DNA from: Lelliottia nimipressuralis
Lineage (GTDB): Bacteria; Pseudomonadota; Gammaproteobacteria; Enterobacterales; Enterobacteriaceae
DNA length: 64,000 nucleotides
Direction: 5' to 3'
Assembly: GCF_004402045.1 (NCBI RefSeq)
Contig: NZ_SOMG01000012.1
Location: 124,001-188,000, forward strand
Shown here: positions 22,152 through 45,880 of the stretch, one piece after another
How the letters are laid out: each line of letters opens with the position of its first letter
Numbering within the stretch: the stretch's first letter is position 1
The notes under the pieces: model-generated
Told to the model about the DNA's origin: nothing
The model's database searches: none
The model's input: only the letters and a program-made list of their open reading frames with translations
Made by a program: the position numbers and the translations under genes

Positions 22152-22164
22152 AAGGTCGGTCTTG
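22152..22164. promoter_or_regulatory. Putative regulator site, degenerate (island palindrome)
   Basis: AAGGTCGGTCTTG resembles the palindrome AAGACCGGTCTT repeated in this island (10 of 12). It lies in the spacer between the divergent kinase and the 96-residue orphan-domain gene. Confidence 0.4.
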
Positions 22165-22193
22165 TTTTTAAAAACTCTCGTCAGAGGCTTTTT

Positions 22194-22209
22194 ATAAGAC
22201 CGGACTTAT
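22194..22209. promoter_or_regulatory. Putative regulator site ATAAGACCGGACTTAT
   Basis: Near-perfect 16-base palindrome, one mismatch from ATAAGACCGGTCTTAT. It ends 66 bases before the start of the orphan C-terminal-domain gene, a plausible activator position. Confidence 0.6.
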
Positions 22210-22275
22210 TGTCCCCTCTCCCCCAGGAAGGTAAAAACGCAGCAGATTTGCTATGCGTAAACAGGTTCTCAAAAA

Positions 22276-22566
22276 ATGAATAACACATTCCCTGCCCTGG
22301 TCGAGATTGACCTCGGCGATATTTTAATGCCAGGGGAAGAGTCTCTTTTTATCGACGACGACAGTCAGCTGTTACTGATAAAAGGCACACCCGGGCAGCA
22401 AGTCAATCTTTGCGAGCTGCTACCCGCAGAATCGGAGCCCGGAGACTGGATGAAAGCCAGAGGCTCCGTCACAGTGGATGGTGTGCAATATGAGGTTTAT
22501 CACCATTCGGGTAATGAGACGGAGCTGCTCGTACAGACAGGTTTAGACGTTGTCCCTCAGACGTGA
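22276..22566 (+). CDS. Small protein consisting of the adhesin C-terminal (T1SS) domain
   Basis: A 96-residue acidic protein. Its whole length aligns with the last ~90 residues of both giant adhesins of this island. Shared landmarks in order are a hydrophobic/acidic start ending GDIL or NDVL, an acidic stretch with LLLIKGTPGQQVNL (MVQGNKGDVLNL in adhesin B), the LLP motif, a PG(D/N)W motif, V(D/S)GV(Q/E)YEVY and a terminal ELLVQTGLDV (ELLVQNGVTV in adhesin B). In the adhesins this region should include the uncleaved type I secretion signal, so the protein could be secreted alone, or could bind the exporter or the adhesins. It has no N-terminal signal peptide. The ribosome binding site is weak. 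It ends 5 bases from the convergent glycosyltransferase-like gene. Confidence 0.8.
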   Translation: MNNTFPALVEIDLGDILMPGEESLFIDDDSQLLLIKGTPGQQVNLCELLPAESEPGDWMKARGSVTVDGVQYEVYHHSGNETELLVQTGLDVVPQT

Positions 22567-22571
22567 TCGGG

Positions 22572-23831
22572 CTAAGTGATAACCTCAACCTGCACCTCGC
22601 CCGCACGAAAACCGTCGGCGAGGAAGAATGGGATAGGCAATCGCCATTGTCCGTCGCGCACCTCCGCCGTATAGTGATAGCTCTCCCCCTTAATCCGTAG
22701 TGTGGCCGCCTGCTTTTCACCGTCGGCTTTCTCACTCGGTCCCGCCAGCACGGTGAACCCGGCGTTACTGCCAACGTGAAAATGTTCTGCATTCCAGCGA
22801 ATTGGCGGATGCGCAGGCCAGGGCTGAGCATGATGAAACGCAAAGATCTCATCATGATTCAGAATGCTCTGTCGGACCGTAGGCCAGAGCGCCACTTTGA
22901 GGAAATACTGATCGGTAAAGCGTGCGCTCCCCCGGTAGCCTGCCACAAACTGACGCATCATTCCCTCTACGTTCGGGATCGTGCCGCCGCAGCCGCCCCA
23001 CATTCCCGCCAGCAACAGCTCGGTATGGGTGAAGTAGTCGCGCATATGGTGGAAATAAAACGGCGAGCGCAGCCAGGCTTCCACGCAGACCTGCTCCCGC
23101 TCGGAGAGCAGGGAATCGGCGTCACGCACTAAAAAACGCTCGACCTGTGGGTCATCCATCACCAGAAAACGCCACAGGGTTGGGTAGATGTGCTTTTCCT
23201 GGCTCATATCCACCAGCGCGGCTCCCGCCTGCGCCAGCCGCTGCCAGACGTGCTGCGGCACGGTGTCATCCAGATAGACACGACAGCGCCAGGCTGGAAA
23301 CAGCCCGGCGGCGGCCTCAACGTTTTTAATTAAGGTTTCGCAGTAGCGCGGCCGATCGCCATACAGACTGAATGCGATGATGTTCTTTTCGGGGCGATCT
23401 GCCCGGAAAGCCGGCGGTGGCGTCAGGGGCAGCGGCCAGACGGTTCCCTGACGAAAACGCTGGTCAGAAAGGGTCAATGACTCCAGACCATAGGCGCGCA
23501 TTTCATCCTTTTTGCCCATATGGCCGCACAATTCTGCCAGGCCATCGAGCCAGGTTTCTGACGCTTCATGACGGCGGGGCGACTGATAAATCTTACGATA
23601 GACCTTGTATGCCTTGTCATGTTTTCCCTCACGCATCAGGCTCAGGGCGTAATCGCTCTGCACCGACATATTGTGCGGCAGAACAGCCAGCGCTTTTTCG
23701 CAGCAGCGAGAGGCCGTCGCATAATCCGTCGCGGCCATTGCGTGGCGGTACTGCTCCGCCAGCGCAGTAAATGTCTGACGCATTGCGTCGTGTTTTGCAG
23801 CAGAGGAATGAGGAGGAAAGGATCGGCGCAT
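22572..23831 (-). CDS. TPR-containing putative glycosyltransferase
   Basis: A 419-residue cytoplasmic protein without signal peptide. Residues about 17-110 form TPR-like helices (YATASRCCEKALAVLP, SDYALSLMREGKHDKAYKVY). Residues about 125-340 resemble a GT-A-type glycosyltransferase: ENIIAFSLYGDRPRYCETL, a DxD-type motif in FLVRDADSLLSERE (about 238-251), and a later acceptor-side region LLLAGMWGGCGG. The C-terminal ~80 residues (GSNAGFTVLAGPSEK onward) look like a beta-rich add-on. Substrate and donor are unknown. Its place inside an adhesin/T1SS island suggests modification of the adhesins before export, which is an inference only. The start is the first ATG of the frame; its ribosome binding site is poor, and the Met at residue 17 is an alternative. 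Confidence 0.65.
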   Translation of the reverse strand: MRRSFPPHSSAAKHDAMRQTFTALAEQYRHAMAATDYATASRCCEKALAVLPHNMSVQSDYALSLMREGKHDKAYKVYRKIYQSPRRHEASETWLDGLAELCGHMGKKDEMRAYGLESLTLSDQRFRQGTVWPLPLTPPPAFRADRPEKNIIAFSLYGDRPRYCETLIKNVEAAAGLFPAWRCRVYLDDTVPQHVWQRLAQAGAALVDMSQEKHIYPTLWRFLVMDDPQVERFLVRDADSLLSEREQVCVEAWLRSPFYFHHMRDYFTHTELLLAGMWGGCGGTIPNVEGMMRQFVAGYRGSARFTDQYFLKVALWPTVRQSILNHDEIFAFHHAQPWPAHPPIRWNAEHFHVGSNAGFTVLAGPSEKADGEKQAATLRIKGESYHYTAEVRDGQWRLPIPFFLADGFRAGEVQVEVIT

Positions 23832-23895
23832 CGTCCAGGCTCAATAATCAAATAAACGTGCGCATTATTGTCCCCTTCGCCTGTAAAGTAAGCGA

Positions 23896-23909
23896 CAAGA
23901 CCGGTCTTG
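23896..23909. promoter_or_regulatory. Putative regulator site CAAGACCGGTCTTG (perfect palindrome)
   Basis: A perfect 14-base dyad centred 71 bases upstream of the glycosyltransferase start, the cleanest copy of the motif repeated across this island. Size and symmetry suit a dimeric NarL/LuxR-type response regulator. Confidence 0.65.
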
Positions 23910-24064
23910 ATGTTTCCGGCAACCAATGCTGACGTTAGATTTATACCGCAAAAAGCAGGTGAAAATGCACGCTTATATTAGTATTGAGAGGATAGCGTAG
24001 AAATAATAACGTTCCTGACCAGACATTGCGCTTTTTGTTATTAACGATTGCCAGAATAATAACC

Positions 24065-24078
24065 AAGCCTTGTCTTAT
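24065..24078. promoter_or_regulatory. Putative regulator site, degenerate (AAGCCTTGTCTTAT)
   Basis: Matches 11 of 14 positions of AAGACCGGTCTTAT, with an intact right half-site. It lies 71 bases before the second sensor kinase. Confidence 0.4.
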
Positions 24079-24148
24079 AACAATACATGTACCGTTTAAT
24101 CAGAATATCACTTTCAGTACCTTATTCTCAGGAGCGTTATAAAAAGTT

Positions 24149-27091
24149 ATGCGCCACTACCTTCGTCGTTTTTTGCTTCTGGTTCTATTTTTACTCGTGA
24201 TGCCATCGGCGCACAGCGAAGAATATAAGATTCTGATGCGCACCCCTATTGAGGGCATGAGTCGATTGCCGCTCAGCGCGGAGCAGGCAACGCTGCTGAA
24301 GCACAGGCAAAATTTGACGGTGGGTATCACACGCTATGACGCGCCCCCCTTTGGTATGCGCAATATGCGCCATGAATATGAGGGGCTGAGCGCTGACTAT
24401 CTCGGCCTGGTGTCCTGGCAGCTTAATCTGCCAGTGCAGGTCAACATGTACGATTCACCGGAAGAGCTGTGGCAGGCGCTCGCGCGCGGAGATATCGATC
24501 TTATTCCGTCGGTCGCCGCCTTCGAGGCGAATGACGCGTTTGTTTTCTCCACGCCTTATGCCAGCGACAAACCCGTGCTGGGTATTAATGACAGAGACAC
24601 CCAGCCGCTGGCGGAAGATCTTGCCAATACGGATGTGGCGATGGTCAGAGACTACCTGCCGCTTGCGCAGGTGAAAGCGGCGTATCCCAACGCGCGTTTT
24701 CGTCTGTTTGACAGCTACCAGGAAGCGCTCAGCGCCGTGGCCTTTGGGCAGTCACGCGCCTATCTGGGCAACAGCTATTCGCTGAGCCGAAATTATCTCA
24801 ACAATATACACATCGAACGTTTCTCGCGCCTGCCCAACCGTGAAGTCGGTTTCGCGCTCAGCCAGAGTAACCCGCAGCTTAACCAGCTGATCAACGCAAC
24901 CATTCGTGCCGTACCGGAAGAGGAAAAGCTGGATCTCTATCGCCGCTGGCAGCCCGATCGTGTCGATATTGCACAGGGAACCAAGTCCCTGGATTTTACC
25001 GACCAGGAGAAAGCGTGGATCGCGCGTCATCCTGACGTGAGCGTGTTGATCTACAGCCAGGATAATGCCGCACCGGTCTCTTTTATTGATAACAAGGGTG
25101 TGCTGCGCGGGGTCGTGGCGGATCTCTTTTCCGTGGTGTCACTGCGTACCGGGTTGCGCTTTCGTTTTGAGACCGGCGATACCACAGATGACCTGATTGC
25201 TAAGGTCAACCATGGACAGGCAGATATGCTCGCGTCGGTAACGCCAAGCGAAGCGCGCCAGGATCAGATCCTCTTTACGCGCCCCTACTTACGCAGCGCG
25301 TTTTCTCTCGCCACATCGACCTCGCGCAACGATATTCACACCCTGGCCGACCTGCGCGGCAAGCGCCTGGCGCTGGTAAAAAATATTGGCGTCGAACGCC
25401 TGATACGCGAACGTTACCCGGAAATCAAAATTGTACATGTCGGCAATGAGTCGCAGCTGCTTTCGAGCGTCACCAATGGAGATGCTGATGCCGCCGTCGG
25501 TATTCTGGTGATGACGGATTATCAGATCTATACCAACTTCCAGGATAAGCTGAAGGTGGTTGCTATCGTTGGCGATTCACCGGTCTGGGTCTCCTTTGGC
25601 GTAGGGCTGGCAAGTCCGGAGCTACAGAGCATTCTGGATAAAGTGTTGCTGAGTATCTCTCCTATTGAGCTGGAAAATCTGGCGAACCGCTGGCGACCCA
25701 ACGAGCTGGTGGTGGTCGACAGCTTCTGGTATCGCTATCGCGAGGTGCTGATCGCTACCGGCGTCTTCAGCGGCGTACTGGTGCTGTTGGCGCTGGGCTG
25801 GGCGCTCTATTTACGTCGGCAGATTGTGCGTAAAGCGGCACTGCGCAGGCAGCTGAACGAGCAGCTCACCCAGCTGCGCGAGATGCTCACGGAACGTGAG
25901 TCGCTGCTGGCGGAGCTGAGCGAGGCGAAAGATCGCGCCGAAGATTCCAACCGGGCAAAATCGGTGTTCCTGTCAACCATGAGTCATGAGATCCGCACCC
26001 CGATGAACGCGATCATCGGCATGCTGGACATCGTCCTGAAAAAAGGACGCCATGGCGAACACGATCTTCAGGCGCTGGAAGTGGCTTACGACTCGGCAGA
26101 AGGTCTGGTGGGGTTGATTGGCGATATTCTGGATATCTCCCGGATCGAGGGCGGGCATCTCGATTTCAACCCGGAACCCGTGCAGTTCGGAAAACTCATC
26201 GACAACATGATGCGGGTGTTCCAGGGCGTGGCGATTGAAAAGAATATCCAGCTGAATAAAGTCTTCCCGACGGACGCGCTGTATGAGGTTTATGCCGACC
26301 CGCTGCGTATCAAGCAGGTGCTCTCCAACCTGCTGAGCAACGCCATTAAGTTTACCGACCGCGGCAGCGTGACGCTGACCTTATCGCAGCGTGAGGAGCC
26401 CGGCACCGATAACATTCAGTTTGTTATTGAGGTACAGGACAGCGGGATTGGTATTGACGCCAGCCAGCAGGCCGCGCTCTTTAAGCCGTTCAGCCAGGCG
26501 GACAATCGCCGGGCGGGAACCGGCCTTGGGTTATATATCAGCCGTACCATCTGTGAAAGCATGAATGGCACGCTCACGCTCGCCAGTGAAAAACATGTTG
26601 GTACCACCGTCAGGGCGACCTTCTCCCTGCCTAAAGTCACCCGTGTCGTTACGCCATGTGCCCAGCCTGATGAGGAAGATGAAAAGTTACCGGTGCTTAA
26701 CGTGCTGGTGGTGGATGACAATCCGGCAAACCGGATCCTGCTGGCCAAACAGCTGGCCTGGCTGGGACAGCACGCGCATCTGGCTTCCGGCGGCGATGAG
26801 GCACTCAAAATCTGGGCTGATACCGCGTTTGATGTGGTCATCACCGACTGCAATATGCCGGGCATCAACGGCTATCAGCTGACGGGCATGATGCGTAACG
26901 CCGAGCGTGAGCAAGGTCGGGCCCCCACCTGGATTATCGGGTTTACTGCCAATGCGATGCATGAGATTACGGAGCGGTGTTTGCAGGCGGGAATGAATGA
27001 TTGTCTGTTTAAGCCGTGCTCGATTAGCGATCTCGCGACGGCGCTGCGCAACAGTACTTCTACGCTTGCACGGGCCTACAAAGAAGAGTAG
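24149..27091 (+). CDS. BvgS/EvgS-type hybrid sensor kinase lacking HPt
   Basis: A 980-residue membrane kinase. Signal peptide to about residue 24 (PSAHS-E). Two periplasmic SBP_bac_3 domains (about 45-275, and 290-525 starting DFTDQEKAWIARHP). Transmembrane helix about 535-555. A linker coiled coil (RQLNEQLTQLREMLTERESLL) without a clear PAS. HisKA with His613 (MSHEIRTPMNAIIGMLD). HATPase with LSNLLSNAIKFTDRG, DSGIGID and GTGLGLYIS. Receiver with Asp900 (VVITDCNMPGINGYQL). Unlike its relative at 18449-22006 it stops right after the receiver, so it must borrow an HPt domain, perhaps from that kinase. Its last residues and TAG stop lie inside a REP element. It is convergent with the regulator gene at 27143. 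Confidence 0.93.
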   Translation: MRHYLRRFLLLVLFLLVMPSAHSEEYKILMRTPIEGMSRLPLSAEQATLLKHRQNLTVGITRYDAPPFGMRNMRHEYEGLSADYLGLVSWQLNLPVQVNMYDSPEELWQALARGDIDLIPSVAAFEANDAFVFSTPYASDKPVLGINDRDTQPLAEDLANTDVAMVRDYLPLAQVKAAYPNARFRLFDSYQEALSAVAFGQSRAYLGNSYSLSRNYLNNIHIERFSRLPNREVGFALSQSNPQLNQLINATIRAVPEEEKLDLYRRWQPDRVDIAQGTKSLDFTDQEKAWIARHPDVSVLIYSQDNAAPVSFIDNKGVLRGVVADLFSVVSLRTGLRFRFETGDTTDDLIAKVNHGQADMLASVTPSEARQDQILFTRPYLRSAFSLATSTSRNDIHTLADLRGKRLALVKNIGVERLIRERYPEIKIVHVGNESQLLSSVTNGDADAAVGILVMTDYQIYTNFQDKLKVVAIVGDSPVWVSFGVGLASPELQSILDKVLLSISPIELENLANRWRPNELVVVDSFWYRYREVLIATGVFSGVLVLLALGWALYLRRQIVRKAALRRQLNEQLTQLREMLTERESLLAELSEAKDRAEDSNRAKSVFLSTMSHEIRTPMNAIIGMLDIVLKKGRHGEHDLQALEVAYDSAEGLVGLIGDILDISRIEGGHLDFNPEPVQFGKLIDNMMRVFQGVAIEKNIQLNKVFPTDALYEVYADPLRIKQVLSNLLSNAIKFTDRGSVTLTLSQREEPGTDNIQFVIEVQDSGIGIDASQQAALFKPFSQADNRRAGTGLGLYISRTICESMNGTLTLASEKHVGTTVRATFSLPKVTRVVTPCAQPDEEDEKLPVLNVLVVDDNPANRILLAKQLAWLGQHAHLASGGDEALKIWADTAFDVVITDCNMPGINGYQLTGMMRNAEREQGRAPTWIIGFTANAMHEITERCLQAGMNDCLFKPCSISDLATALRNSTSTLARAYKEE

Positions 27092-27117
27092 GCCGGGTAA
27101 GCGCAGCGCCACCCGGC
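27064..27117. repeat. REP/BIME element overlapping the end of the kinase gene
   Basis: Inverted REP arms GCTTGCACGGGCCTAC (27064-27079) and GTAGGCCGGGTAAGC...CCACCCGGC (27088-27117). The kinase stop codon TAG (27089-27091) is formed by the second arm, so the C-terminal ~9 residues are REP-encoded. Confidence 0.9.
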
Positions 27118-27142
27118 AAGAAAAGCGGCTCTCAGTGGAGAG

Positions 27143-27829
27143 TCACAGCAGCTGGTCGTGCCAGAGGAACAGTTCCGGGTCGGTTTTCACGCCCAGCTTT
27201 TTCATCGCGGATTTCTTTTGGCCGCTTACCGTTTTGCGGCTACGGCTGAACTTCTCGGAAATTTGCAGCACCGACATACCGGAAAGGAAAAGGCGTAACA
27301 CCTCCAGTTCCCGCGCCGAGAGCTGATCCAGACGGCCAATGCCGTCGATCACATGTTGTTCATCTTCAACGTCACCGGGTGCAGACGGCTCAGAGATAAG
27401 ATAAAACTCCTTCTCCATGCTTTCAGAGAGGCAAATATGGCCCGCCGCCACCCGGCGCACCGCATCGACCACTTCCGAGGCGTCACGGCTTTTACCGATA
27501 TGCCCGCGCACACCGGCCTTCAGCGCCATACGGACAATGGCGGTATTTTCCAGGGTCGATGAGATCAAAATTTTCAGCCAGGGAAAATTGCTCATCAGCT
27601 GCTTAATCATCGGTAATCCGTCGATGTCTTCATCACCGAGTAAATAATCGAGGATCAGCACATCAATACGGTTGGTACGTAAAAAATTAATCAGGTCAAT
27701 GCGGCTGGCAAAGCTGCCCTTCAGTTCGAAATCCGGCTCCTGGCTGAAAATAATCTCCAGCCCCTTGCGCACAATCGGATGATCGTCGAGTAAGGCGATA
27801 TAAATTTTCTTTCCTGAATACTGATTCAT
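27143..27829 (-). CDS. BvgA/EvgA-type (NarL family) response regulator
   Basis: A 228-residue two-component regulator. The ATG at 27829 (MNQYSGKKIYIALLDDHP) is preferred: GAAGAGAG precedes it and the receiver then begins normally, while the longer frame overlaps the upstream gene. The receiver has the acidic pair Asp15-Asp16 (with His17-Pro18), phospho-acceptor Asp61 (LILDYLLGDEDIDG) and the conserved Lys (GHIGKSRDASEV). The C-terminal LuxR-type helix-turn-helix is LSARELEVLRLFLSGMSVLQISEKFSRSRKTVSGQKK. It is the natural partner of the two BvgS-type kinases and the best candidate to bind the recurrent palindromes. The gene starts 50 bases after the TolC-like gene on the same strand, so it is probably the last gene of the secretion operon. 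Confidence 0.92.
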   Translation of the reverse strand: MNQYSGKKIYIALLDDHPIVRKGLEIIFSQEPDFELKGSFASRIDLINFLRTNRIDVLILDYLLGDEDIDGLPMIKQLMSNFPWLKILISSTLENTAIVRMALKAGVRGHIGKSRDASEVVDAVRRVAAGHICLSESMEKEFYLISEPSAPGDVEDEQHVIDGIGRLDQLSARELEVLRLFLSGMSVLQISEKFSRSRKTVSGQKKSAMKKLGVKTDPELFLWHDQLL

Positions 27830-27879: not shown

Positions 27880-29340
27880 TTACGGCTTTCTCAGCCACTG
27901 CAATAATGTTCCCGCACTGGCATAACTACGAAAAATAGCAGCGTAAGCGTCAAAGCGGTTGGTGGCTTCTGCGACCTGGTTACCGTAATAATCACTTTCT
28001 GCACTCAGCACATCCAGCAGGGTTCGTTTGCCAAGGTGGTACCATTGATCGAAGAAATCATGGCGAATGCGATCGGATTCAAAGGCTAAGTCGTGGTACA
28101 ACTCTGCGCGCTCCAGCATGCTACGGGCATCCTGATCGGCCGCACGCACGCGGTTATCCAGATCGCGTAACTGTTTTTCAATGGTTTCTCTGCTGGCGTC
28201 CGCACGACGCGCGGCAGAGAGTTCAGCGGCTCGCTGAGAACCGCCGCGGAAAATCGGCCAGCTCACGTTCACGCCCGTCTCCCAGGACTGTTCACGCCCC
28301 AGCTCGTCGCGCCCGGTGCTTTTGCCCACGTTCCAGGTCACCGTCGGGAAGGACGCCGAACGCGCGGCATCCGCATCCGCCAGCGCCGACGCGGTCTCTG
28401 CCTGCGCCTGGCGAATCGTCGGATGCGTGTCGATGGCCGTGAGCTGTGTCGTCAGTTCACCTGGCTTCAGGTTCCAGACGGTCGCCGCTGGCAGGGGCAC
28501 TTTTTTGTCCCCCAGCAGGCGGTTAAGGGTAATTTCAGTATCACGCGCACGTGATACGGCGGTATCCAGCGATGATTGCGCCTGGAGCAGCCGCCCGCGG
28601 GCCTGGGTCAGCTCGCTGCGACGGCCCTGATCGACCTTCACGATCCCATCCAGCATCTCAACCAGCTCGTTCATCCGCGCCACATACTTTTGACTCAGAC
28701 GGATAATCTGGCGCTGCTTGCTCAGTTCGATGAGCGCGCTGCTGACCTGCCAGGCGATATCTTCCGCCTGGGCATCAACGTTATTTCTCGCCGCATCATG
28801 CAGGGCTTCACGGCTTTTAATGGTGTTGCTGGTGCGGCCAAAATCGAGCAGGGTGGTCGCCATATTGACGGTGACCGCCGGACGACTGTCGCTGTAGCGA
28901 TGTTCACCGCCACCAAACTGATAACTTTTAGAGCGGGTGCCGACATCAATTTGCGGCCAGCGCTGGCCTTTGGCTTCGTCAACGTTGGCTTCTGCCGCTT
29001 CCGTATTGTAATTTGCGCCGCGCACTTCGGGGCTGATGCTCAGCGCGGTATTCACCGCATCATTAAACAGAGTGCGGATCTCACCTTCACTGGGCGCCCG
29101 GGCCGTTTTATCGCGTTTCGGCGCGGCGACCGCGCGTGTCACAGGTGCCTGCTCCACTAACGGAGCGGCCGGCGCGGGTGGTGTGGAGGCCATCACCATG
29201 CGAGATTTTACCACAGGGTCCACAGGCGCAAAGGCTAATAAGCCGTCACTATTTGCTGCACTTTTAGCCGATGCCAGGCAAGCCGCGGCCGTCAGCAGCG
29301 CCGCCAGACGGCGCTGCATAAAGATTGAATCACTTTTCAT
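27880..29340 (-). CDS. TolC-family outer-membrane protein of the type I secretion system
   Basis: A 486-residue exported protein: N-terminal signal (about residues 8-25), a Pro/Ala-rich segment (about 50-80), then a TolC/LapE fold of two structural repeats. Typical stretches are NTALSISPEVRGANYNTEAA, GQRWPQIDVG, TLLDFGRTSN and, in the second half, SASFPTVTWNVG and WPIFRGGSQRAAELSAARR, ending VLSAESDYYGNQVAEATNRFDA. It forms the outer-membrane channel for adhesin export. It starts one base after the stop of the adaptor gene, which implies co-translation and a dedicated rather than shared TolC. Confidence 0.93.
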   Translation of the reverse strand: MKSDSIFMQRRLAALLTAAACLASAKSAANSDGLLAFAPVDPVVKSRMVMASTPPAPAAPLVEQAPVTRAVAAPKRDKTARAPSEGEIRTLFNDAVNTALSISPEVRGANYNTEAAEANVDEAKGQRWPQIDVGTRSKSYQFGGGEHRYSDSRPAVTVNMATTLLDFGRTSNTIKSREALHDAARNNVDAQAEDIAWQVSSALIELSKQRQIIRLSQKYVARMNELVEMLDGIVKVDQGRRSELTQARGRLLQAQSSLDTAVSRARDTEITLNRLLGDKKVPLPAATVWNLKPGELTTQLTAIDTHPTIRQAQAETASALADADAARSASFPTVTWNVGKSTGRDELGREQSWETGVNVSWPIFRGGSQRAAELSAARRADASRETIEKQLRDLDNRVRAADQDARSMLERAELYHDLAFESDRIRHDFFDQWYHLGKRTLLDVLSAESDYYGNQVAEATNRFDAYAAIFRSYASAGTLLQWLRKP

Positions 29341-29341
29341 A

Positions 29342-30577
29342 TTAACGCTCGCGGAATGCTTCCTTCGCTTTGAAGATAGGTTTCAACAGATAATCAAGAA
29401 TGGTTTTTTCACCGGTGCGGATTTCGACCGTGGCAATCATGCCGGGAATAATCGGCAGGGATTTTCCGCCCGCCGTCAGCGTGCTGCTGTCGGTCAGGAC
29501 CATCACCCGGTAATAGGTATCATCAGGACGACCCGCGGCGGCTTTGGCGTCATCTTTGAGCGTGTCCGGGCTGACCAGCGAAACCTGCCCTTTCAGACCG
29601 CCGTAAATACCGAAATCGTAGGCGGTGATCTTCACCATCGCCGGTAATCCGGCATGCAGGAAGGCGACGTCAGACGGTTTGATTTTCCCTTCCACCAGCA
29701 GCTGGTCTTCCAGCGGCACGATTTCCATAATGTGTTCACCCGGCTGAATAACGCCGCCGATTGTGGTGACGCGCACGTTTTTCACCGTGCCTTTCACCAG
29801 GGCGGTGATGGTGGTCCGGCTCACCACGTCGGCGCGCCCAGTCAGGCTCTCTTCGGCCTGCACCAGATCCAGCTCCTGGCGAATCAGTTCGGCGTTGGCA
29901 TCCGCCTGGTAGCGGTTACGACGCTCGACAATTTGCGATTGCAGGTCATTCGCCTGACGACGCATACGCAGCAGTTCTACTTCAGAGAGCAGGCCGCGCG
30001 CGGCCAGCGGCTCTGACATGGCAATTTCGTTCTGCGCCAGGCGGTAGCTTTTCTCGAGCGAAGCCACGCCCTCTTCCAGCGCCTGCTTACGGCTGTTGTA
30101 GGCGCGGGTTTCCAGGTCCACTTCGGAAGGATACTGTTTCACGCGGTCGCTAAAGGTCAGCGGCAGGCCGTAGGCTTCAGCACGCAGACGGTTGACGGTC
30201 GCTTCCAGCGCCACCACTTTACGCAGCGTCTCCTGATAGCTGGACTGGGCGCGGGTCGGGTCGATTTTCAGCAGCACCTGCCCCGGCTCAACGATGTCGC
30301 CCTCACGGACGTTCAGCTCTTCGAGAATGCCGCCTTCCAGGCTCTGGATAATTTGCTCACGGCTTTTCGAGACGATTTTCGCGTCGCCTTTGGTGACCTC
30401 TTCCACTTTGGCGAAATGCGCCCAGGTTAAAAACCCGGCGAACACCAGCAGGATCAGCCATAACACCAAGCGTGACTTTGGCGTGGTCTGGGAGAAGAGC
30501 GCCTCCTGAATATCGCTCATCCAGGCGGCATCGCGTGCGGATAATGCCTTGTTATTGTTACGCTTTAAGAATTTCAT
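29342..30577 (-). CDS. HlyD-family membrane-fusion protein of the type I secretion system
   Basis: A 411-residue periplasmic adaptor. A short cytoplasmic N-terminus is followed by one transmembrane segment (about 38-57, LVLWLILLVFAGFLTW), a lipoyl half-motif (EGGILEELNVREGDIVEPGQVLLKID, about 95-120), a coiled-coil hairpin (about 130-255) and the second lipoyl half (VKGTVKNVRVTTIGGVIQPGE). The C-terminal beta-domain has the family end IIPGMIATVEIRTGEKTILDYLLKP. It links the ABC ATPase to the outer-membrane channel. Its start overlaps the ATPase stop by four bases (ATGA, 30574-30577). Confidence 0.95.
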   Translation of the reverse strand: MKFLKRNNNKALSARDAAWMSDIQEALFSQTTPKSRLVLWLILLVFAGFLTWAHFAKVEEVTKGDAKIVSKSREQIIQSLEGGILEELNVREGDIVEPGQVLLKIDPTRAQSSYQETLRKVVALEATVNRLRAEAYGLPLTFSDRVKQYPSEVDLETRAYNSRKQALEEGVASLEKSYRLAQNEIAMSEPLAARGLLSEVELLRMRRQANDLQSQIVERRNRYQADANAELIRQELDLVQAEESLTGRADVVSRTTITALVKGTVKNVRVTTIGGVIQPGEHIMEIVPLEDQLLVEGKIKPSDVAFLHAGLPAMVKITAYDFGIYGGLKGQVSLVSPDTLKDDAKAAAGRPDDTYYRVMVLTDSSTLTAGGKSLPIIPGMIATVEIRTGEKTILDYLLKPIFKAKEAFRER

Positions 30578-34056: not shown

Positions 34057-34070
34057 TGGAAAAGTTTAAG

Positions 34071-37000
34071 TTAGTGATTATTCACGTTGACGGTGACGCC
34101 GTTCTGCACCAGCAGTTCCACGTCCAGATTTTCCATCTGGTACACCTGGTACTCGACGCCAGACACCTTGACGTTACCTGCGTTAGTCCAGTTACCCGGA
34201 TCGCTGTTGTCAGGCAGCAGGTCGTTCAGGTTCAGCACATCGCCTTTATTCCCCTGCACCATCAGCTGTTTATTGCCGTCGGCGATAAACATGTCTTTCT
34301 CAGCGTGGGTCAGCACGTCGTTCACGTTGATATTCAGCACATCCGCTTTGCCGTTGTTCATATCAATCGTTGAAACCTGCTGATCTTTGCCGACCAGCTT
34401 GCTCAGATCGATGCTGTCCTTCGCGTCGCCCGCTAACGTCAGCGTATGATTGACGGCATCATATCCTTCGGTTGCCTGGCCAACGTGCTCAACGCCTTTC
34501 TGCTCTGTCGATGCATCCTGCTTAGACGCGTTATCGTCTTCGTTCTGAGCCACAACAGGCGCTTTTGCCGGTTTGTTTTCCTCGCTGGTCACACGCTGTT
34601 CTTCATGAACAGGCTGGGTGTTTTCCTCAACGCTGAAGGAACGCATACTGCGGCTATTGCGCAGCAGCATGCCATCAACAGTGATCGGTACCCCGTTGTA
34701 TGTGTGAATGCTGGTATCCGCGACATCTACAACGGTAAACACTGCCGCAAAGCCGTTGCCGTTCCCTGGAGCAGACAATCCGATAGCACGCCACTGCGCC
34801 AGCGTTAAGGTAACGGTCCAGGTACCATCATCCAGCACCCGCCCGGTTGTACCTGCCAGCGTAGGCGTCAAACCGCCTCTCAGGCTGACAGTATGGCCCG
34901 GAATCCCTCCCACACCTTTAACCGTAATCACTTCACCGACGACATCAAAGTACCCACCACCGCTGACGCTGGTGATCAGGAAGTTTTCAGGCGACCAGGT
35001 TTCCACGGTCACATAACGCTGGGCACCTAACGCACTGCTGTTGCCTGCGGTATCAATCTGCTTGGCACGGAAATACCAGGTGCCATCAGGCAACGCCGTT
35101 GGAATTTCCAGACTCCAGGTACCATCTGCTTTGGCCGTGGTGGTGTAGATAATGTTCTTACCGCTTGTCCATCCAGACCCAGTCGTTGGACCCGCCAGCC
35201 AGATCTCGATCTTCGCACCCGCTTCCGCGCCGTTACCGGTGATGGTCGGACGGTTGTCGTTGGTCTTCTCTGCGTCAACCAGGTTACCGACCTTGCCGCC
35301 CGCAACGTTATCGACGACTGCTGTAATGACAGGTGCAGCCGCGACCGTATCAACCACAACATAGTGCTGGTTACCCAGAGCGCTCTTGTTGCCCGCCTGG
35401 TCAGTCTGATTGGCACGGAAGTACCAGGTGCCATCCTGCAATGCCTTCGGAATTTCCAGGCTCCAGGTACCGTCCGCTTTGGCGGTGGTGGTATACACGA
35501 GGTTGTTATTACTCCACCCCTGATTACCCAGCGCCAGCACGATTTCGATCTTCGCGCCCGCTTCCGCACCGTTACCGGTGATGGTCGGACGGTTGTCGTT
35601 GGTACGCTCCCCGTCAACCAGGTTACCGACTTTACCGCCCGCCACGTTATCAGTAATAACCGTTACGTTCGGTGCGGCCACCACGGTATCCACGGTAATC
35701 GCGAAGTTGGTGGAGTTCACCGAACGGTTCCCGGCTTTATCAACAGAGTAAGCCTGGAAGTTATACGTCTGGTTATAGTTGGTCGTCAGCGGGAAAGACC
35801 ATTGTCCATTCGCACCCGCAGTGGTTGAACCATGAACCCCACCGTTTGCCGGGTTGATGATATACACCACGCTGCCCGCTTCCGCCGTGCCGCGTAAATC
35901 CAGCGTTCTGTCGTTGGTTACGCCACCGTTACCCACCAGACCGTTATACACGCCCCCCTGAACATCATCCCAGGAGCCAGTAATCACTGGCGCGTTATTG
36001 ACCGTATCAACCGTAATTGCAAACTTCGCAGAATCTGCCGAACGGTTGCCAGCCGGATCGACAGAGTACGCATGGAAGTTGTATTGCTGGTTGTAGTTAG
36101 TCGCGATCGGGAGCTTCCAGCTACCATTTGCATCCGCCTTCACGGAACCCGCAACAGTGCCATAGTTATCGATGACGATGTACACCACGCTACCCGGCTC
36201 AGCGGTACCACGCAGTTCTGGTGTCTTGTCGTTCGTCACGCCACCATTCGCCACCAGGCCGTTATACACGCCACCCGCAACATCGTCATACGCACCGGTA
36301 ATCACTGGTGCGGCATTGACCGTATCCACATTCAGTGAATAGGTCGCCGATTTACCGGAAACGTTGCCCAAATCGTCTTTGGCAATGGTGTAGAACATAT
36401 GTGGGCGACCCGCAGCAGTATCCGCGACCGAACGCGACCAGCTCCAGTTACCCTTAGCATCAGCTTTTACTGTATCCAGCACGCCGTCGTTATAGGCGTT
36501 GTAGATATAGATAATGCTGTTCGCTTCCGCCGTACCGCGCAGTTCCATACTGCCGTCATTGCTCAGCCCACCGTTCGGTACCAGTCCGTTGTAGATGCCG
36601 CCTTCCACGTTATCGTACGCGCCCAGAATGACCGGCGTGGCCGCTTTCGTGTCGACTTCCAGACCGTAATGGTTGGATTCACCCGACAGGTTTCCCGCCT
36701 GATCCTGCGCCTTCACAAAGAAGTTGTGCTGCGTATCAGACAGGGTTGGTGAGGTCCATTTCCAGTCGCCATTTGCATCGGCATATACCGAACCAACCGG
36801 CACATTGCTACCCGGAACGTAAATTTTCACCAGACTGTCTTTCTCAGCGGTACCACGCAGCTCTGGCGTGGTGTCGCGTGAGCGGCTGCCGTCAGCGATC
36901 AGCGTGTTCGCATCGTCATACATGCCTGTAATAGCCGGCGCGTTTGGTGCTTCGGTATCAATAGTCAGATTCCACGCTGCCGTTGGCGCGCTCTTCACGC

Positions 37001-39818: not shown

Positions 39819-39904
39819 ACAATTTTCCAAATGAATTCTGTTTATGTTCTGGTCTAAAAGCTTCCGGAGGCTCCGGTTCAGGAGCCTCACTTTCCTGGCA
39901 TCAA

Positions 39905-42900
39905 TTAATGGTTCTGTAGCGTGACCGTGACTCCCATCTGAACGAGGATCTCGGTATTCAGGCTATCCATCTGATAAGACTGATACTCCACTCCCCCAAC
40001 ATTCACCGTCCCGCCATCGGTCCAGTTCCCCGGGTCCATACCGTTCGGCAGCAGGTCGCTCAGATTCACCGTGTCGCCCGCGTCGCCCTTCACCATCATT
40101 TGGTTGAAGTCGTTGTCGTGGAACAGGTTCTGCGTGGCGTTTTCCAGCACATCACCCGCGCTCAGCGTCAGGGTGTTGTTGCCTGTTCCCGTAATGTCGA
40201 ACACTTCCACTGACTGGACAGGATGGGTCAGCGCGCTCAGGTCGAGGTGCTGATCCGCCCCCAGCAGCTTCAGCGTGTCGGTGCCTTCGCCACCCTGAAT
40301 CACCGCGTCGGTCAGGCTGGTCACATCCGCAACCTGATACAGGTTGTCCGCCGCGTCGCCGTACCAGACATCGCCCAGGTTATCCGCCAGGAACTCGCCT
40401 GGGGTGACGGTTTTCGCCGTTCCGCTTACCACCAGGTTATCGATGCTGAAGCCAAACCCGGAGCTGGTCGCCTGTTCCTCGTGGTGGATCTCCATCCGGT
40501 AAACCGGCGTATCATCCGGGCTGGTAAACGACACCGGGACGTTACGGTTAGGGAGGAAGGCGCTCACCGACTGAGATCCAATCTCCTTGCCGTTAATGTC
40601 GTAGAACGTCACCACCGTCGACGGGCCGGCAAAACGCGGGTTGAAAACGAAATCGATCGTTTTAGCGCCATACTGGAAGTCAACAAACATGCTGGCTTGC
40701 ATCCCGGTATCCGTTGAGGTGCTGTACAAATACAGGCTGTTGGTGCTTCCCGTCCCGATGACCTGTTTGTCGAATTCATAATCCGCCGTGCCGGTATCCG
40801 GAGTGTGGGAGAAACGCATCCCGTGCACCCATGCGCCCGCATTAATGTCCGCGAACTCCGTATCGTCTTCGAAGCTATTGGTACTGGTGAACGCGCTGGT
40901 GCGGTAGCTTGAGCTGTTACCCGCCGCGTCAACAATCGCCGCGCCCACCGGAATATCGGTGTAGCCGCCCGGTGGCAGACTCAGGGTCACGTTGCCGTTA
41001 GCGATGTCGGCGGCCGTCAGCGTATGGGTCACGGTAATGTCGCCGCTCTTCACCAGCACGGTGTCGCCCTCGACAATCCCGCTGCCCGGCAGCGTCACCG
41101 TCACGTCGTTACCGCTGCGCACCACGTCGGTCGGCTCATCCGGCGCCACCTGATCCAGCACCACCTTCTGCGAGGATTCGGTGTAGTTCCCGGCGATATC
41201 GACCACGCGCGTCAGGACAGTCCAGTCCGCGCTATGCCCCTGGCCATCGACAAACGCCCATTTGTCGCCGTCAACCATGGCTTCCAGCCAGGTTTTCCCA
41301 CCGTCAGTGGAGACCAGCACTTTCCCGCCCGCTTCCAGCGGGGCCGAAAGATGGCCGCTGACCAGGCTACCCACCTGACCACTGTTGGTGATGAAGTCGT
41401 TGCCGTTGACACCGGAGTCATGGGTCATCGCATCGACCACCGCGTTGCTGGTTGGCGCGTCGGTATCAATGATGATTTTCCATTCCGCCGACGGCGCGCT
41501 TTGTACGCCGGTCGGGCTCTGGAATACCGTTTTCAGCGCCAGCTCGGTACCGTTGTTCTGCGCAGGCAGGGTGTAGTTCCAGGTGTTACCCGGCCCTACG
41601 GTCACGGAGTCGAGCAGCGTGGTGCCGTCGTAAATAAACACGACATCACCCGCGACGCCGGTCCCGTGCAGGGTTGGCGTGGTGTCATCGGTCACCGCCG
41701 GGTTCGCCAGGTCGCCCTGCACCAGCCCTACGTCATCCGATACGCTATCGAATGAGCCAACCGGTACGCGGGTATCCAGCGTCAGTTCAAACGGCGCCGT
41801 CTGCGCGCTGTCACCGGTGCCGGTATTTTCACTGGCGGTGATCTGGTACGTCCCATCAGCGGTCAGCGCCGGGTTGAAGGTGTATTTCCACGCACCGGTA
41901 GCCGGGTCAGCGATCACGGTGTCGACAAACTTGCCGTCCAGATACACTTTCACTTCAGCACCAGGCGTCGCGCGGCCCACAACGGTAGGTGTCGTGTCAT
42001 CGGTATGGCTGCCGCTGGCCAGATTGCCCTTCAGCGCCCCTTCATCGTCTTCCACGTGGCTGATAGACACGCCGTTGAGGCTGGTGTCCACGATGAAGTG
42101 GATCGGAGCAGACTCCGGGCCGACGTTACCGGCTTTGTCTTCAATCGAGACTTTCCAGGTGTAATCACCGTCCGCCAGGGCCGGTGCCGGGGTATAACTC
42201 CAGTTACCGCTGCCATCTACCGGCACGCGCACGGTGGTGCCGTTCCCCAGATCGATGATCGCGGTACCGTCAGGTTCACCCTTACCACGGTAGGTTGGGG
42301 TGTTGTCGTCGGTGGTGCCGTTATCCGCAATAATGCCCGGCGTGCCGAAGTCGTCCCACAGCTCAATATCCGTAGGTGCCAGCGGATCAACGGAATCCAC
42401 AATAATCACCCACTCGCCGGTTTCCGGGCTGCGGTTGCCCACGGCGTTTTCCGCGACCGCGTGGAAGCGGTGCTCGCCCTGTGCCAGTGCAGTGTCGAAA
42501 TCGATAGTCCAGGTGCCACCCGTAACCACAGCGCTACCGATCGGCGTCGGGTTAGTGCCGTCGTACAGGTAAATCGTCGTACCGTCCTGACCCGTACCGG
42601 TGATGGTCGGTTTGTCGTCGTTCGTGATGCCACCCTGCTGTACGGTACCAACATGAGCATCGACATCGTCGATAACGTCCGTGATCGCCGGAGCAGGAGG
42701 AATACCGCCTGCCACCAGTTCAAACGCGAACGCGTCAGACGGTTCAGAACGCAGACCTGCCTTATCATCGGCAACCACTTTCACATCGTAGTGGCCGTTC
42801 ATCAGCGCCGGAGATGGCGTCCAGGTCCAGTTGCCTGTCGGGTCAGCGGTAACGGAATCCACTTCCTTACCGTTAACGATGATGCGCACTACGCTGTTTT

Positions 42901-44812
42901 TCTCAGCGGTACCGGTAAAGGTCGGAGTACTGTCATCGGTGATATCGCCGTTGGCCAGATTGCCCGTTTTCAGGCCAGCATCATCAAACACGCTGTCAAT
43001 CGTCGGTTTTGCCGGCGGCGTGGTGTCTACGATGAAACCGATCGGATCGGACGGCTCGCTGTCGTTACCCACCGGATCGGTGATCACCACAACCGCTTCA
43101 TGTTCGCCTTCCGGCAGCGGTTTCTCAGGCGTTACTTCCCACTTACCGTCATCGCCGACAATCGCGGTACCGACGACTTCATCGTCAATAATCAGACGCA
43201 CAGTGTCGCCTGGCGTACCGTTGTCGCCACTGAATACCGGCTGGGTGTCGTCGGTGGTATCACCATCGTGTATAGGACCCACAACCGGTCCCTGGTCGTC
43301 TTCAACGTCACCAATGACCGGCTTGTCAGGGCCTTGCAGATCAACGATAAATTCGAAATCATCAGACGGTTCGCTGGCGTTGCCTTCTGGATCGGTAATC
43401 ACCACTTTCCCGGTGTGGCTGCCTTCCGGCAGCGGTTTCTCAGGCGTCACTTCCCACTTACCGTCGTCACCAACGATCGCGGTGCCGACCAGTTCATCGT
43501 CCACGATCAGTCTGACGGTATCGCCAGGCGTGCCGTTTTCACCGCGGAACGTCGGCTGCGTATCGTCAGTCGCGCCGCCGTTCTGGATTGGGCCCACCAC
43601 GGTACCGGCGTCATCTTCCACTTCCCCGATGATCGGTTTTTCTGGCGTCACGATAAATTTGAAGTCATCAGACGGTTCGCTGTCGTTCCCGGCCGGATCG
43701 GTAATGATCACCTTCCCGGCGTGGCTGCCTTCCGGCAGTGGTTTCTCAGGCGTCACTTCCCATTTGCCGTCTTCACCGACGATAGCGGTACCGACCACTT
43801 CGTCGTCAACGATCAGGCGTACGGTATCGCCAGGCGTGGCACCTTCACCGTGGAAGACCGGCTGTTTATCGTCAGTCGCATCGCCGTTATGGATTGGGCC
43901 CGTTACCGCGCCAACGTCGTCTTCCACTTCGCCAATGATCGGCTTAACAGGCGCTTCAAGATCGACGGTGAAATCAAAAGAATCGCTCGGCGCGCTGGTG
44001 CGACCATCCGGGCCTTTACCGATCAGCACAATGCTGTGGTCGCCGTGCGCCAGCGGGGTTTCCGGCGTCCAGGTCCAGGTGCCGTCTGCGCCCACACGGG
44101 TTTCGCCGAGCTTGACGTTGTTTTCCCAGAACTCAACGATATCGCCCGCTTTGCCTTTACCGCTAAACGTTGGCGTGGCGTCATCGGTCACGCCGTTTTG
44201 TGGGATCGAGCCGGTTTTCGTGCCGAAATCGTCGTGCACGTCGGTCAGTTCAGGGGTGGTGACAGGCGCAACGGTGCCTTTTTTGTCTCCGCCATCGTCA
44301 CGGTTATGACGAATGATGGCGCCCAGGCCCACCAGCGCACCAATCCCGGCTAACGCACCCAGCGCCAGCAAGGCAGGAGAGAATGCGGTACCCGCAACGG
44401 CCAGACCGTCCAGGCCCGCAATGGCACCTGCACCCAGCGCCTGAGCGGAGGATTCGCCATCCAGCAGGAATGCAGCTTTGTGGTCGTCGTCGCCGTCAGT
44501 GGCAATGTACTCATGCCATTGACCATCTTCGCCTTTACCGACCAGCTCACCTGGGTTATCGAAATAGTCTTCAATGATCAGCTGTGGCTGATCCTCGTCA
44601 GTGCCTTCCAGCATGACGAACAAGTCTTTGCCTACGCGTTTCAGCGTAATGTTTTCTGGCGCGACGCCATTTTCCCCTTCAGCAAGAATGTATTTTGCAT
44701 TCGGGATGGCTTTGATTTTGACAGCACTGCCAACCTTTTCACTGCGCAGAACGTCAGCTTTGACAATCGTATCTTTATCAACGACTGCAATATTTACTGG
44801 CTTGAGAGTCAT
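39905..44812 (-). CDS. Giant Ig-repeat type I-secreted adhesin A (BapA-like)
   Basis: A 1635-residue protein from the ATG at 44812 (MTLKPVNIAVVDKD). Layout: a BapA-prefix-like domain (1-120), a Gly/Ala-rich hydrophobic segment (125-167, then RHNRDD), about ten Ig-like repeats from residue 185, and less regular Ig-like domains. A beta-sandwich region at about 1312-1461 resembles a carbohydrate-binding or lectin fold (MFVDFQYGAKTIDFVFNP, VVTFYDINGKEIG, GFGFSIDNLVVSG). The C-terminal domain (about 1480-1635) contains DNLYQV, ADVTSLTDAVIQGGEGTDTL and the end EILVQMGVTVTLQNH. The prefix and hydrophobic stretch probably hold the protein in the exporter at the surface, as in LapA/SiiE-type adhesins. 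I found no clear LapG-type di-alanine cleavage site. It leads a transcription unit continuing into adhesin B (86 bases) and the OmpA-like gene. Confidence 0.93.
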   Translation of the reverse strand: MTLKPVNIAVVDKDTIVKADVLRSEKVGSAVKIKAIPNAKYILAEGENGVAPENITLKRVGKDLFVMLEGTDEDQPQLIIEDYFDNPGELVGKGEDGQWHEYIATDGDDDHKAAFLLDGESSAQALGAGAIAGLDGLAVAGTAFSPALLALGALAGIGALVGLGAIIRHNRDDGGDKKGTVAPVTTPELTDVHDDFGTKTGSIPQNGVTDDATPTFSGKGKAGDIVEFWENNVKLGETRVGADGTWTWTPETPLAHGDHSIVLIGKGPDGRTSAPSDSFDFTVDLEAPVKPIIGEVEDDVGAVTGPIHNGDATDDKQPVFHGEGATPGDTVRLIVDDEVVGTAIVGEDGKWEVTPEKPLPEGSHAGKVIITDPAGNDSEPSDDFKFIVTPEKPIIGEVEDDAGTVVGPIQNGGATDDTQPTFRGENGTPGDTVRLIVDDELVGTAIVGDDGKWEVTPEKPLPEGSHTGKVVITDPEGNASEPSDDFEFIVDLQGPDKPVIGDVEDDQGPVVGPIHDGDTTDDTQPVFSGDNGTPGDTVRLIIDDEVVGTAIVGDDGKWEVTPEKPLPEGEHEAVVVITDPVGNDSEPSDPIGFIVDTTPPAKPTIDSVFDDAGLKTGNLANGDITDDSTPTFTGTAEKNSVVRIIVNGKEVDSVTADPTGNWTWTPSPALMNGHYDVKVVADDKAGLRSEPSDAFAFELVAGGIPPAPAITDVIDDVDAHVGTVQQGGITNDDKPTITGTGQDGTTIYLYDGTNPTPIGSAVVTGGTWTIDFDTALAQGEHRFHAVAENAVGNRSPETGEWVIIVDSVDPLAPTDIELWDDFGTPGIIADNGTTDDNTPTYRGKGEPDGTAIIDLGNGTTVRVPVDGSGNWSYTPAPALADGDYTWKVSIEDKAGNVGPESAPIHFIVDTSLNGVSISHVEDDEGALKGNLASGSHTDDTTPTVVGRATPGAEVKVYLDGKFVDTVIADPATGAWKYTFNPALTADGTYQITASENTGTGDSAQTAPFELTLDTRVPVGSFDSVSDDVGLVQGDLANPAVTDDTTPTLHGTGVAGDVVFIYDGTTLLDSVTVGPGNTWNYTLPAQNNGTELALKTVFQSPTGVQSAPSAEWKIIIDTDAPTSNAVVDAMTHDSGVNGNDFITNSGQVGSLVSGHLSAPLEAGGKVLVSTDGGKTWLEAMVDGDKWAFVDGQGHSADWTVLTRVVDIAGNYTESSQKVVLDQVAPDEPTDVVRSGNDVTVTLPGSGIVEGDTVLVKSGDITVTHTLTAADIANGNVTLSLPPGGYTDIPVGAAIVDAAGNSSSYRTSAFTSTNSFEDDTEFADINAGAWVHGMRFSHTPDTGTADYEFDKQVIGTGSTNSLYLYSTSTDTGMQASMFVDFQYGAKTIDFVFNPRFAGPSTVVTFYDINGKEIGSQSVSAFLPNRNVPVSFTSPDDTPVYRMEIHHEEQATSSGFGFSIDNLVVSGTAKTVTPGEFLADNLGDVWYGDAADNLYQVADVTSLTDAVIQGGEGTDTLKLLGADQHLDLSALTHPVQSVEVFDITGTGNNTLTLSAGDVLENATQNLFHDNDFNQMMVKGDAGDTVNLSDLLPNGMDPGNWTDGGTVNVGGVEYQSYQMDSLNTEILVQMGVTVTLQNH

Positions 44813-44927
44813 GTTTAAATTCTCGTGTAAATAATCGATCTGTGTCCGCGCAACGCGCCAGACGCACTTCCATACGGGATACATTCCCTGGCTGACGCTA
44901 TCTTCCCGGCTGGCAAGTTTTGGCTTA

Positions 44928-44956
44928 ATAAGACCTGTCGCAAACCGGTCTTATAT
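44928..44956. promoter_or_regulatory. Tandem putative regulator sites between adhesin A and the LuxR gene
   Basis: ATAAGACCTGTCGC (44928-44941) directly abuts AAACCGGTCTTATAT (44942-44956). Each is a copy or strong half of the island palindrome, and together they form a larger dyad with ATAAGACC and GGTCTTAT ends. They lie in the 288-base divergent region, 116-144 bases from either start. Confidence 0.6.
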
Positions 44957-45100
44957 GTCTCAGGAGGGGGAAAGTGGCACTGTCATCTGACGGTATATGG
45001 ACGCCAGAAAATAATGGCGAAGATAAAGACAAGTCTTAGTCAACTTTTTTTTGCGTGGATGGAAAATGACATTTTTGTCACTCAATCAGGACAATCAGGA

Positions 45101-45724
45101 ATGTCAGATAAAAAAGTCATTCTCATGGATGCCAGTTCATTACTCCGGACAGGCATCCAGGGTTTATTAGCAGAACACGGTTATCAGACAGCGGCACAAT
45201 TCCTCACGATTGAGGCAATGCTCAGCGCGTTGCCGATGTTACAGGCTGACCTGATTATTATGGAGCATCTGCAACAGAGCCCCGATGTTTTCTCTCAACT
45301 GGTACATATAAGAAAAGCCTACCCTGATATTAAGGTTCTTATTTTGTCTTCGTCCTCCAGCGATTTTCATATTCAGTTGAGCCGACGGGCCGGTGCATCA
45401 GGCTATATAAATAAAAACAGTTCGTTAGAGAAAATCATTAGTACCGTCAACAAAATCACATCCGGTGGATATTGCTATGGCTCAGAGCTATGGCAACACC
45501 ACGCCCGGTATCCCCGGGATGCATCACTGTTATTATCGCTGTCGCATATTGACATCTGTATTTTGCGCTATATTTCTGCGGGCTACAGCAATCAAATTAT
45601 CGCCTCGATGCTGAATATGAATAATAAAAAAGTGAGCGCGTATAAGCAGCGCATCATGGCAAAATTTAAAATGACCCGTCTGGCGGAGCTGGTGGATCTG
45701 GCAAAACGGAATTATCTGTACTGA
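45101..45724 (+). CDS. LuxR-type regulator with Glu at the phospho-acceptor position
   Basis: A 207-residue NarL-like protein from the ATG at 45101 (MSDKKVILMDASSLLRTG; AGGA nine bases upstream), rather than the first ATG of the frame at 45014. The receiver is degenerate: the usual acidic pair is reduced to Met9-Asp10, and the phospho-acceptor position is Glu55 (ADLIIMEHLQQ) instead of Asp. The switch Ser (LILSSSSS) and Lys (YINKNSS) remain. The C-terminal helix-turn-helix is HIDICILRYISAGYSNQIIASMLNMNNKKVSAYKQ. A Glu can mimic phospho-Asp, so the protein may be constitutively active or respond to other inputs. Divergent from adhesin A with shared palindromic sites, it is a good candidate for a local regulator of the island. 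Confidence 0.85.
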   Translation: MSDKKVILMDASSLLRTGIQGLLAEHGYQTAAQFLTIEAMLSALPMLQADLIIMEHLQQSPDVFSQLVHIRKAYPDIKVLILSSSSSDFHIQLSRRAGASGYINKNSSLEKIISTVNKITSGGYCYGSELWQHHARYPRDASLLLSLSHIDICILRYISAGYSNQIIASMLNMNNKKVSAYKQRIMAKFKMTRLAELVDLAKRNYLY

Positions 45725-45853
45725 ACGCCGGATGGCGCCCGGACGACGCCATGTTCGGGCTTATTTACATAATTCGTTGCAAACGAATGCTCCGAAAATA
45801 GTGATCTACCGCACATTTCCCTCCCCATCTACCGAAGCGAATGTCTACGCTTA

Positions 45854-45880
45854 TAAGACGCCCGGATAAACCTGTCTTTT
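45854..45880. promoter_or_regulatory. Split copy of the island palindrome upstream of treF
   Basis: ATAAGAC (45854-45860) and ACCTGTCTTT (45871-45880) reproduce the outer half-sites of the tandem arrangement at 44928-44956 with a ten-base spacer. It ends 28 bases before the treF start codon. Confidence 0.4.

Follow-up and report, generated by a model that had tools for sequence, protein, structure and literature searches.

Class II activators, LuxR of Vibrio fischeri among others, sit at about -42, and in the Bvg system a kinase-regulator pair switches adhesion genes, an arrangement resembled by the 28-kb adhesin and secretion island described below (17670–45768). In the structure of RcsB bound to DNA, K180 and S184 are the residues that read the bases A, G and A of TCTAAGA (PMC5829831), and RcsB is described as having LuxR-type partners (PMC5651002). 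The island lies in a 64,000-nucleotide stretch of Lelliottia nimipressuralis DNA (contig NZ_SOMG01000012.1, positions 124,001 to 188,000 of the forward strand; hereafter the window), and a palindrome recurs at its promoters. Probably this palindrome serves as operator for an RcsB-like response regulator encoded by the island itself (27143–27829), which would act as a class II activator of seven promoters.

The preliminary description of this DNA reported the palindrome at the island promoters, and the sites at 22152, 22194, 23896, 24065, 32938 and 44928 are all present. When both strands were read around each promoter, seven 16-bp sites were identified, one per island promoter (HK1 and HK2 are the two hybrid kinases of the island):

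22150–22165, minus strand: predicted operator of the HK1 promoter, ACAAGACCGACCTTAA, with -10 TAAAAT at 22122–22127, spacer 22.
22194–22209, plus strand: predicted operator of the orphan-domain gene promoter, ATAAGACCGGACTTAT, with -10 TAAAAA at 22232–22237, spacer 22.
23895–23910, minus strand: predicted operator of the promoter of the 22572–23831 gene, TCAAGACCGGTCTTGT, with -10 GACAAT at 23867–23872, spacer 22.
24063–24078, plus strand: predicted operator of the HK2 promoter, CCAAGCCTTGTCTTAT, with -10 CAGAAT at 24101–24106, spacer 22.
32937–32952, minus strand: predicted operator of the secretion operon promoter, TTGAGACAGGTCTCAT, with -10 CAGAAT at 32908–32913, spacer 23.
44928–44943, minus strand: predicted operator of the adhesin A promoter, TTGCGACAGGTCTTAT, with the -10-like GAAGAT at 44900–44905, spacer 22.
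45024–45039, plus strand: predicted operator of the luxR promoter, TAAAGACAAGTCTTAG, with -10 GAAAAT at 45062–45067, spacer 22.

The island promoters originally listed as targets do have sites, but the list missed HK1, towards which 22150–22165 reads, and the luxR site at 45024, and it was wrong about treF (see below). The supposed tandem at 44928–44956 contains one full adhesin A site (44928–44943), but its second half is not general:

44942–44957, no strand assigned: extra half-site (CCGGTCTTAT) adjoining the adhesin A operator, missing from G014 and G022, two of the seven orthologous islands.

With up to three mismatches, ATAAGACNNGTCTTAT matches the window eight times, against 1.08 expected (standard deviation 1.11), and none of 100 shuffles reached eight. 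Weak matches of this type lie elsewhere in the window, at 5376 and 47410. The start of luxR is more likely ATG 45101 than ATG 45014, since the AGGA ahead of the former is kept in all seven islands and the upstream ATG is not.

The promoter layout is fixed. At all seven promoters in the window, a -10-like hexamer stands 22 bp (23 at the secretion operon) beyond the 16-mer. When a sigma-70 -10 matrix was applied at every spacer, the score in the window peaked at 22 (mean 2.05, next best -0.69), which 10 of 20,000 random shifts equaled; across the seven genomes that carry the island, the peak was again at 22 (mean 2.25, next -0.70), and none of 20,000 shifts equaled it. The layout holds in the other island genomes with small changes only. 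Judged from the -10 hexamers, the palindrome would be centered near -42.5, the place of class II activators; as at promoters that depend on such activators, the site occupies the -35 position and its distance to the -10 is fixed. A protein centered at -42.5 could also block RNA polymerase, and the same regulator might thus bind and repress these promoters by covering the -35 region. This is quite improbable: in the range of 15–19 bp, no island promoter has a -35 hexamer with more than four of six letters, which suits dependence on an activator.

Specificity was assessed across the genome. The bare 16-bp consensus, at up to three mismatches, occurs at 18 places, against 23 for the reversed control; it is not rare, and the motif would therefore fail the genome scan suggested in the preliminary description if that is taken in its loosest form. 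What makes the sites specific is the weight matrix together with their constant distance to the -10 hexamer, not the bare consensus. When one promoter at a time was left out, the held-out sites ranked 4 to 14 of 127,912 positions with the 16-mer, and 4 to 12 with the 16-mer plus the -10. A composite score of at least 18, from a matrix trained on the island, is reached at 10 positions in the 28-kb island (the seven sites, three of them also on the opposite strand), nowhere in the rest of the window (best 15.4) and nowhere in 400 kb sampled from the same genome (best 17.7).

A sequence-only model was built from 24 site sequences, and its matches include these training sites; only 104–150 candidates were scored per genome. 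In its own genome, the model gave eight matches at E<=10, all inside the island, and in the seven island genomes, 48 of 48 matches fell inside it. The other 54 genomes gave 13 weak matches in 12 (best E 0.138). Six of the 13, from genomes without the island, represent one homologous coding stretch and were taken as chance; a 145-residue open reading frame covers this stretch at three of the four loci with listed frames, and at the fourth the frame lies on the other strand of the same gene.

The sites and their spacing are kept in all seven Enterobacter genomes that carry the island, among 61 searched. Among 60 genomes of the genus, seven have the response regulator, at 83–100% identity; the same seven, of 61, have the LuxR protein, at 66–100%. 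The island was read in all seven carriers and the intergenic regions were aligned, giving 49 promoter copies. The seven sites stand out in the alignments of all seven orthologous islands; in two of these, G014 and G022, the kinases, adhesins and LuxR are only about 70–80% identical to those of the window. Positions G5, C7, C12 and T13 of the site are invariant in all 49 copies; position 3 varies (A in 34, G in 15). The original reading, an operator of a local regulon, is thus supported by conservation in every island, by fixed promoter geometry and by strong local enrichment.

The binder favored here is the following gene:

27143–27829, minus strand: RcsB-like response regulator, the proposed binder; last gene of the secretion operon (abc-hlyD-oep-rr).

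Its closest named loci are in Enterobacter genomosp. O (98% identity) and E. chuandaensis (97%). Two Pfam domains, Response_reg (52.9 bits) and GerE (44.5 bits), exceed their cut-offs, making it a NarL/FixJ-type regulator, and alignment shows an intact phosphoacceptor pocket (DD, D, S/T, K: LLDDH, LILDY, ISS, IGK). Among solved structures, RcsB chains are closest (2.5e-21). The protein is nevertheless neither an RcsB ortholog (NCBIfam equivalog 89.9 bits, cut-off 235) nor an EvgA ortholog (50.6 bits, cut-off 251). Its recognition helix, RSRKTVSGQKKSAMKKLG, is nearly identical to RSIKTISSQKKSAMMKLG of RcsB; K180 is kept, S184 is replaced by Gly and I179 by Arg. The site half shares AAGA with the RcsB site TCTAAGA (PMC5829831), and position 7, directly after AAGA, is C in 49 of 49 copies. 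The Arg at the place of I179 may contact the G paired to this C. The shared AAGA also raises the alternative that chromosomal RcsB itself controls the island through RcsB-box-like sites. This is very unlikely, as the invariant C7 is not required by the RcsB half-sites TTAGGAA and TCTAAGA, the sites recur beside homologues of the island regulator, and the genomes without the island yielded only the weak model matches mentioned above.

Recurrence beside homologous regulators was examined with the matrix trained on the Enterobacter islands. The 20 loci covered, all except G008 from other genera, have homologues of the regulator, the kinases or the secretion genes (G087b, a second secretion locus of G087, was left out). 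At all seven loci whose regulator carries the helix RSRKTVSGQKQ(S/A)AL, a site of at least 11.4 lies upstream of a relevant gene; random sets were as good in 0 of 4000 cases for G080, G080c, G356, G190 and G289, and at frequencies of 0.03 for G298 and 0.065 for G415. The top-scoring site in 40 kb of G080 lies upstream of abc, at a distance of 101 bp, and is followed after 22 bp by CAGAAT; hk1 of G080 has two further sites ahead of it. G298 has sites ahead of abc, of luxR, and of rr and hk1, which share one. When six promoters from these two loci were scored, with hand-chosen sites (27551 was taken of the two at G080 hk1), the -10 score again peaked at 22/23 bp, equaled by 2 of 20,000 shifts. 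In four g131 genomes, the site lies in the rr-hk1 divergent region and is the best of 40 kb in three. Loci with other helices (G087, G008, G128b, G236) gave no significant site match (p 0.18–0.24), and six loci without a regulator of the island class (G247, G437, G331, G394, G311, G435) gave nothing above 8.2.

These comparisons bear on the second binder originally put forward, the LuxR protein of 45101–45724, in which Glu55 replaces the phosphoacceptor Asp. Held active by this Glu, it might bind the palindrome either without a partner or in a heterodimer with the response regulator, as RcsB pairs with BglJ, MatA or RcsA; LuxR-type partners of RcsB are known (PMC5651002). It occurs in the same seven genomes as the response regulator, Glu55 is kept in all seven islands, and luxR has its own site. 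Yet the motif is kept in G080 and G298, where LuxR is 25–28% identical to the island protein, its helix is changed and Asp stands where the island protein has Glu; the site is present at four g131 loci, where no match to luxR or the secretion genes was found at E<=1e-10 within the 40 kb read; and no asymmetry is consistent across the sites. LuxR as the binder is therefore unlikely. Because sites recur beside homologous regulators, while LuxR has diverged or was not found nearby, the motif appears to track the response regulator better than LuxR. The response regulator is thus preferred of the two candidates, although it is RcsB-like rather than BvgA-like as first described.

Several observations weigh against the response regulator as activator of the island promoters through these sites. 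A comparable match lies outside the island, at C1:810410 (matrix 18.6 plus 1.2); it was missed by the sequence-only model and is also kept in G047 and G018, both without the island. In G010, orfX has the hexamer TAAAAA one base closer. Two good sites in G298 (38225 and 5841) are not near island-gene homologues, the G415 (g131) site is only the fourth best of 40 kb, and the g131 sites have no convincing -10 at 22/23 bp. At G080b, G298b and G128a, where the helix is nearly the same, no site exceeds 9.5.

The C1:810410 match (L007:1501–1544), the strongest one noted outside the island, is a near-perfect site with TATACT at 22 bp, between hydrolase-like and regulator-like genes. It was not counted as a member, as it overlaps a stop codon, enters a hairpin-like repeat and persists in G047 and G018. 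In G014, this region is located near the luxR of the island. Within the window, a weaker copy at 5376–5391, outside the island, has a -10 at 22 bp and stands before an FG-GAP gene (5466–7286); its composite score is 15.4 and its right arm is missing in G014. The region of this site is present in 3 of 61 genomes, all three (G014 included) island-bearing.

The preliminary description also assigned a copy at 45854–45880, before treF, to the regulon. This copy was rejected, as it stands before treF in genomes without the island. Of 60 treF loci matched, 30 were read, 24 of them from genomes without the island; TATARGACGCCCGGAWAAACCTGTCTT is present letter for letter at 16 of these 24, with one or two changes at three, and has diverged at five. 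In many island-free genomes, similarity to the window resumes at about 45768. The segment 17670–45768 is in none of the four island-free genomes read; in three of these gor and treF are neighbors, and in G036 a 240-residue open reading frame lies between them. From its sequence context, the treF half-site pair lies outside the island, in native treF DNA.

In the window, the island stands between two genes that we take to be gor and treF; in G014 and G022 the same island is elsewhere, with no treF beside it in the 40 kb read. Megablast of 22001–47000 against E. coli returned only a 48-bp piece, on five plasmid records; this stretch (27072–27118, at the end of HK2) matches them at 93.8%, is unannotated there and is possibly a terminator. 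A search of 17000–49000 against Rfam gave nothing at the gathering threshold.

The remaining island genes are as follows:

18449–22006, minus strand: HK1, EvgS/BvgS-like hybrid kinase with receiver and HPt (domain matches).
22276–22566, plus strand: orphan-domain gene, a free-standing copy of the last ~92 residues of the island adhesins.
22572–23831, minus strand: 'glycosyltransferase' gene, for which only TPR matches were found.
24149–27091, plus strand: HK2, EvgS/BvgS-like hybrid kinase with receiver and no HPt match (domain matches).
27880–32832, minus strand: type I secretion genes (outer-membrane factor, HlyD-type adaptor, ABC transporter).
33119–44884, minus strand: two adhesins with Ig repeats (B, A) and an OmpA-family protein, downstream of the adhesin A promoter; a presumed operon.
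45101–45724, plus strand: LuxR/FimZ-like protein whose phosphoacceptor Asp is replaced by Glu55.

In the proposed mechanism, a dimer of the response regulator, probably phosphorylated, would bind TAAGACNNGTCTTA-like DNA centered near -42.5 and recruit RNA polymerase where the -35 box is missing. Its targets would be the adhesins, the secretion operon, luxR, the genes of HK1 and HK2, and two others. The gene for the regulator, last in its operon, overlaps the secretion genes; since this operon and both kinase genes have a site, positive feedback would result, and the whole island would be turned on together in a self-reinforcing way. An HPt domain was matched in HK1 but not in HK2, and HK2 may therefore relay its phosphate via HK1. 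We infer that the regulator binds the sites, that it activates and does not repress, that HK1 and HK2 phosphorylate it via the one HPt, and that the feedback is positive. LuxR is a predicted target of the regulon and may be a partner.

Two EvgS-like hybrid kinases thus have one HPt domain between them, and in G087, likewise, one of two kinases is shorter (984 versus 1201 residues). The orphan-domain protein is 41% identical to adhesin B over 92 residues and 39% to adhesin A over 94; its gene has its own operator copy, and it is odd that a lone secretion-signal domain should be made alone. The gene labeled a glycosyltransferase in the preliminary description matched TPR models only. A gene at 17670–18452 encodes an AadA C-terminal (nucleotidyltransferase) domain and overlaps the end of HK1 by 4 bp; it would be driven by the HK1 promoter. 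It is present in G002, G003 (part) and G010, and was not found in the stretches read of G014, G022 and G040. The first ~25 codons of adhesin A (44812–44884) are nearly identical in DNA in seven islands, the rest of the gene being far more variable; the conserved DNA was rejected as a leader, as it is the start of the adhesin A reading frame (ATG at 44884).

The most interesting lead is given by operator variants. Arg at the I179 place goes with AAGAC half-sites, base 7 being C in 27 of 36 half-sites of 18 sites; with Leu there (G008, G128b), sites are TTGAGAGTGSTCTTGT-like with AAGAG, base 7 being G in 8 of 10 half-sites of five sites. A His/Ala-Gly helix, HK(Q/R)AGM (G087, G236), goes with CCRGGACNNGKCCTGG; in these two genomes, CCAGGACGCGGCCTGG and CCGGGACCGGTCCTGG lie between divergent genes, and a -10-like hexamer follows at 22 bp in both directions in G087, in one direction in G236. 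At up to three mismatches, CCRGGACNNGKCCTGG has three matches in each of G087 and G236, against 2.5 and 2.1 in shuffles, which is no excess. Since the variant sets were chosen after looking and the matches are no commoner than in shuffles, they serve as a lead only. It is conceivable, if somewhat doubtful, that this RcsB-like branch in enterobacteria rewrites its operator by small changes in one helix and keeps the 22-bp promoter layout. If true, such regulators, of which some belong to adhesin islands, would bring a readable recognition code with them, and the paired variants would make DNA choice by RcsB-type regulators directly testable.

The analysis turns an uncharacterized 28-kb mobile adhesin-secretion island into one predicted regulon with a named regulator and seven promoters, each with a predicted site and start position, and the matrix allows a hunt for the same regulon in other enterobacteria. 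No paper on the island or motif was among the matches listed in a literature search, which is weak evidence. The system would be known in kind, as an RcsB-like class II activator of a local regulon, and, as far as those literature matches go, the island and motif would be new.

With the RcsB homodimer sites of the Rcs phosphorelay, the island system shares the closest regulator structures, the nearly identical helix and the AAGA half-site; RcsB sites, too, lie mostly upstream of the -35 region (PMC5651002). It differs in a regulator below the equivalog cut-off with changes at S184 and I179, in an operator that adds an invariant C after AAGA, and in being a local island regulon with EvgS-like kinases instead of RcsC/RcsD. 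As in BvgAS and EvgAS, both kinases are EvgS/BvgS-like hybrids with SBP_bac_3 domains; unlike those systems, the island has two kinases, one without HPt, and its regulator is not an EvgA ortholog and has no adjoining kinase gene in the window. Like class II activators such as LuxR of Vibrio fischeri, it places a palindrome in the -35 position at a fixed distance from the -10, but here a whole secretion-adhesin island would be served, from starts predicted by the hexamers.

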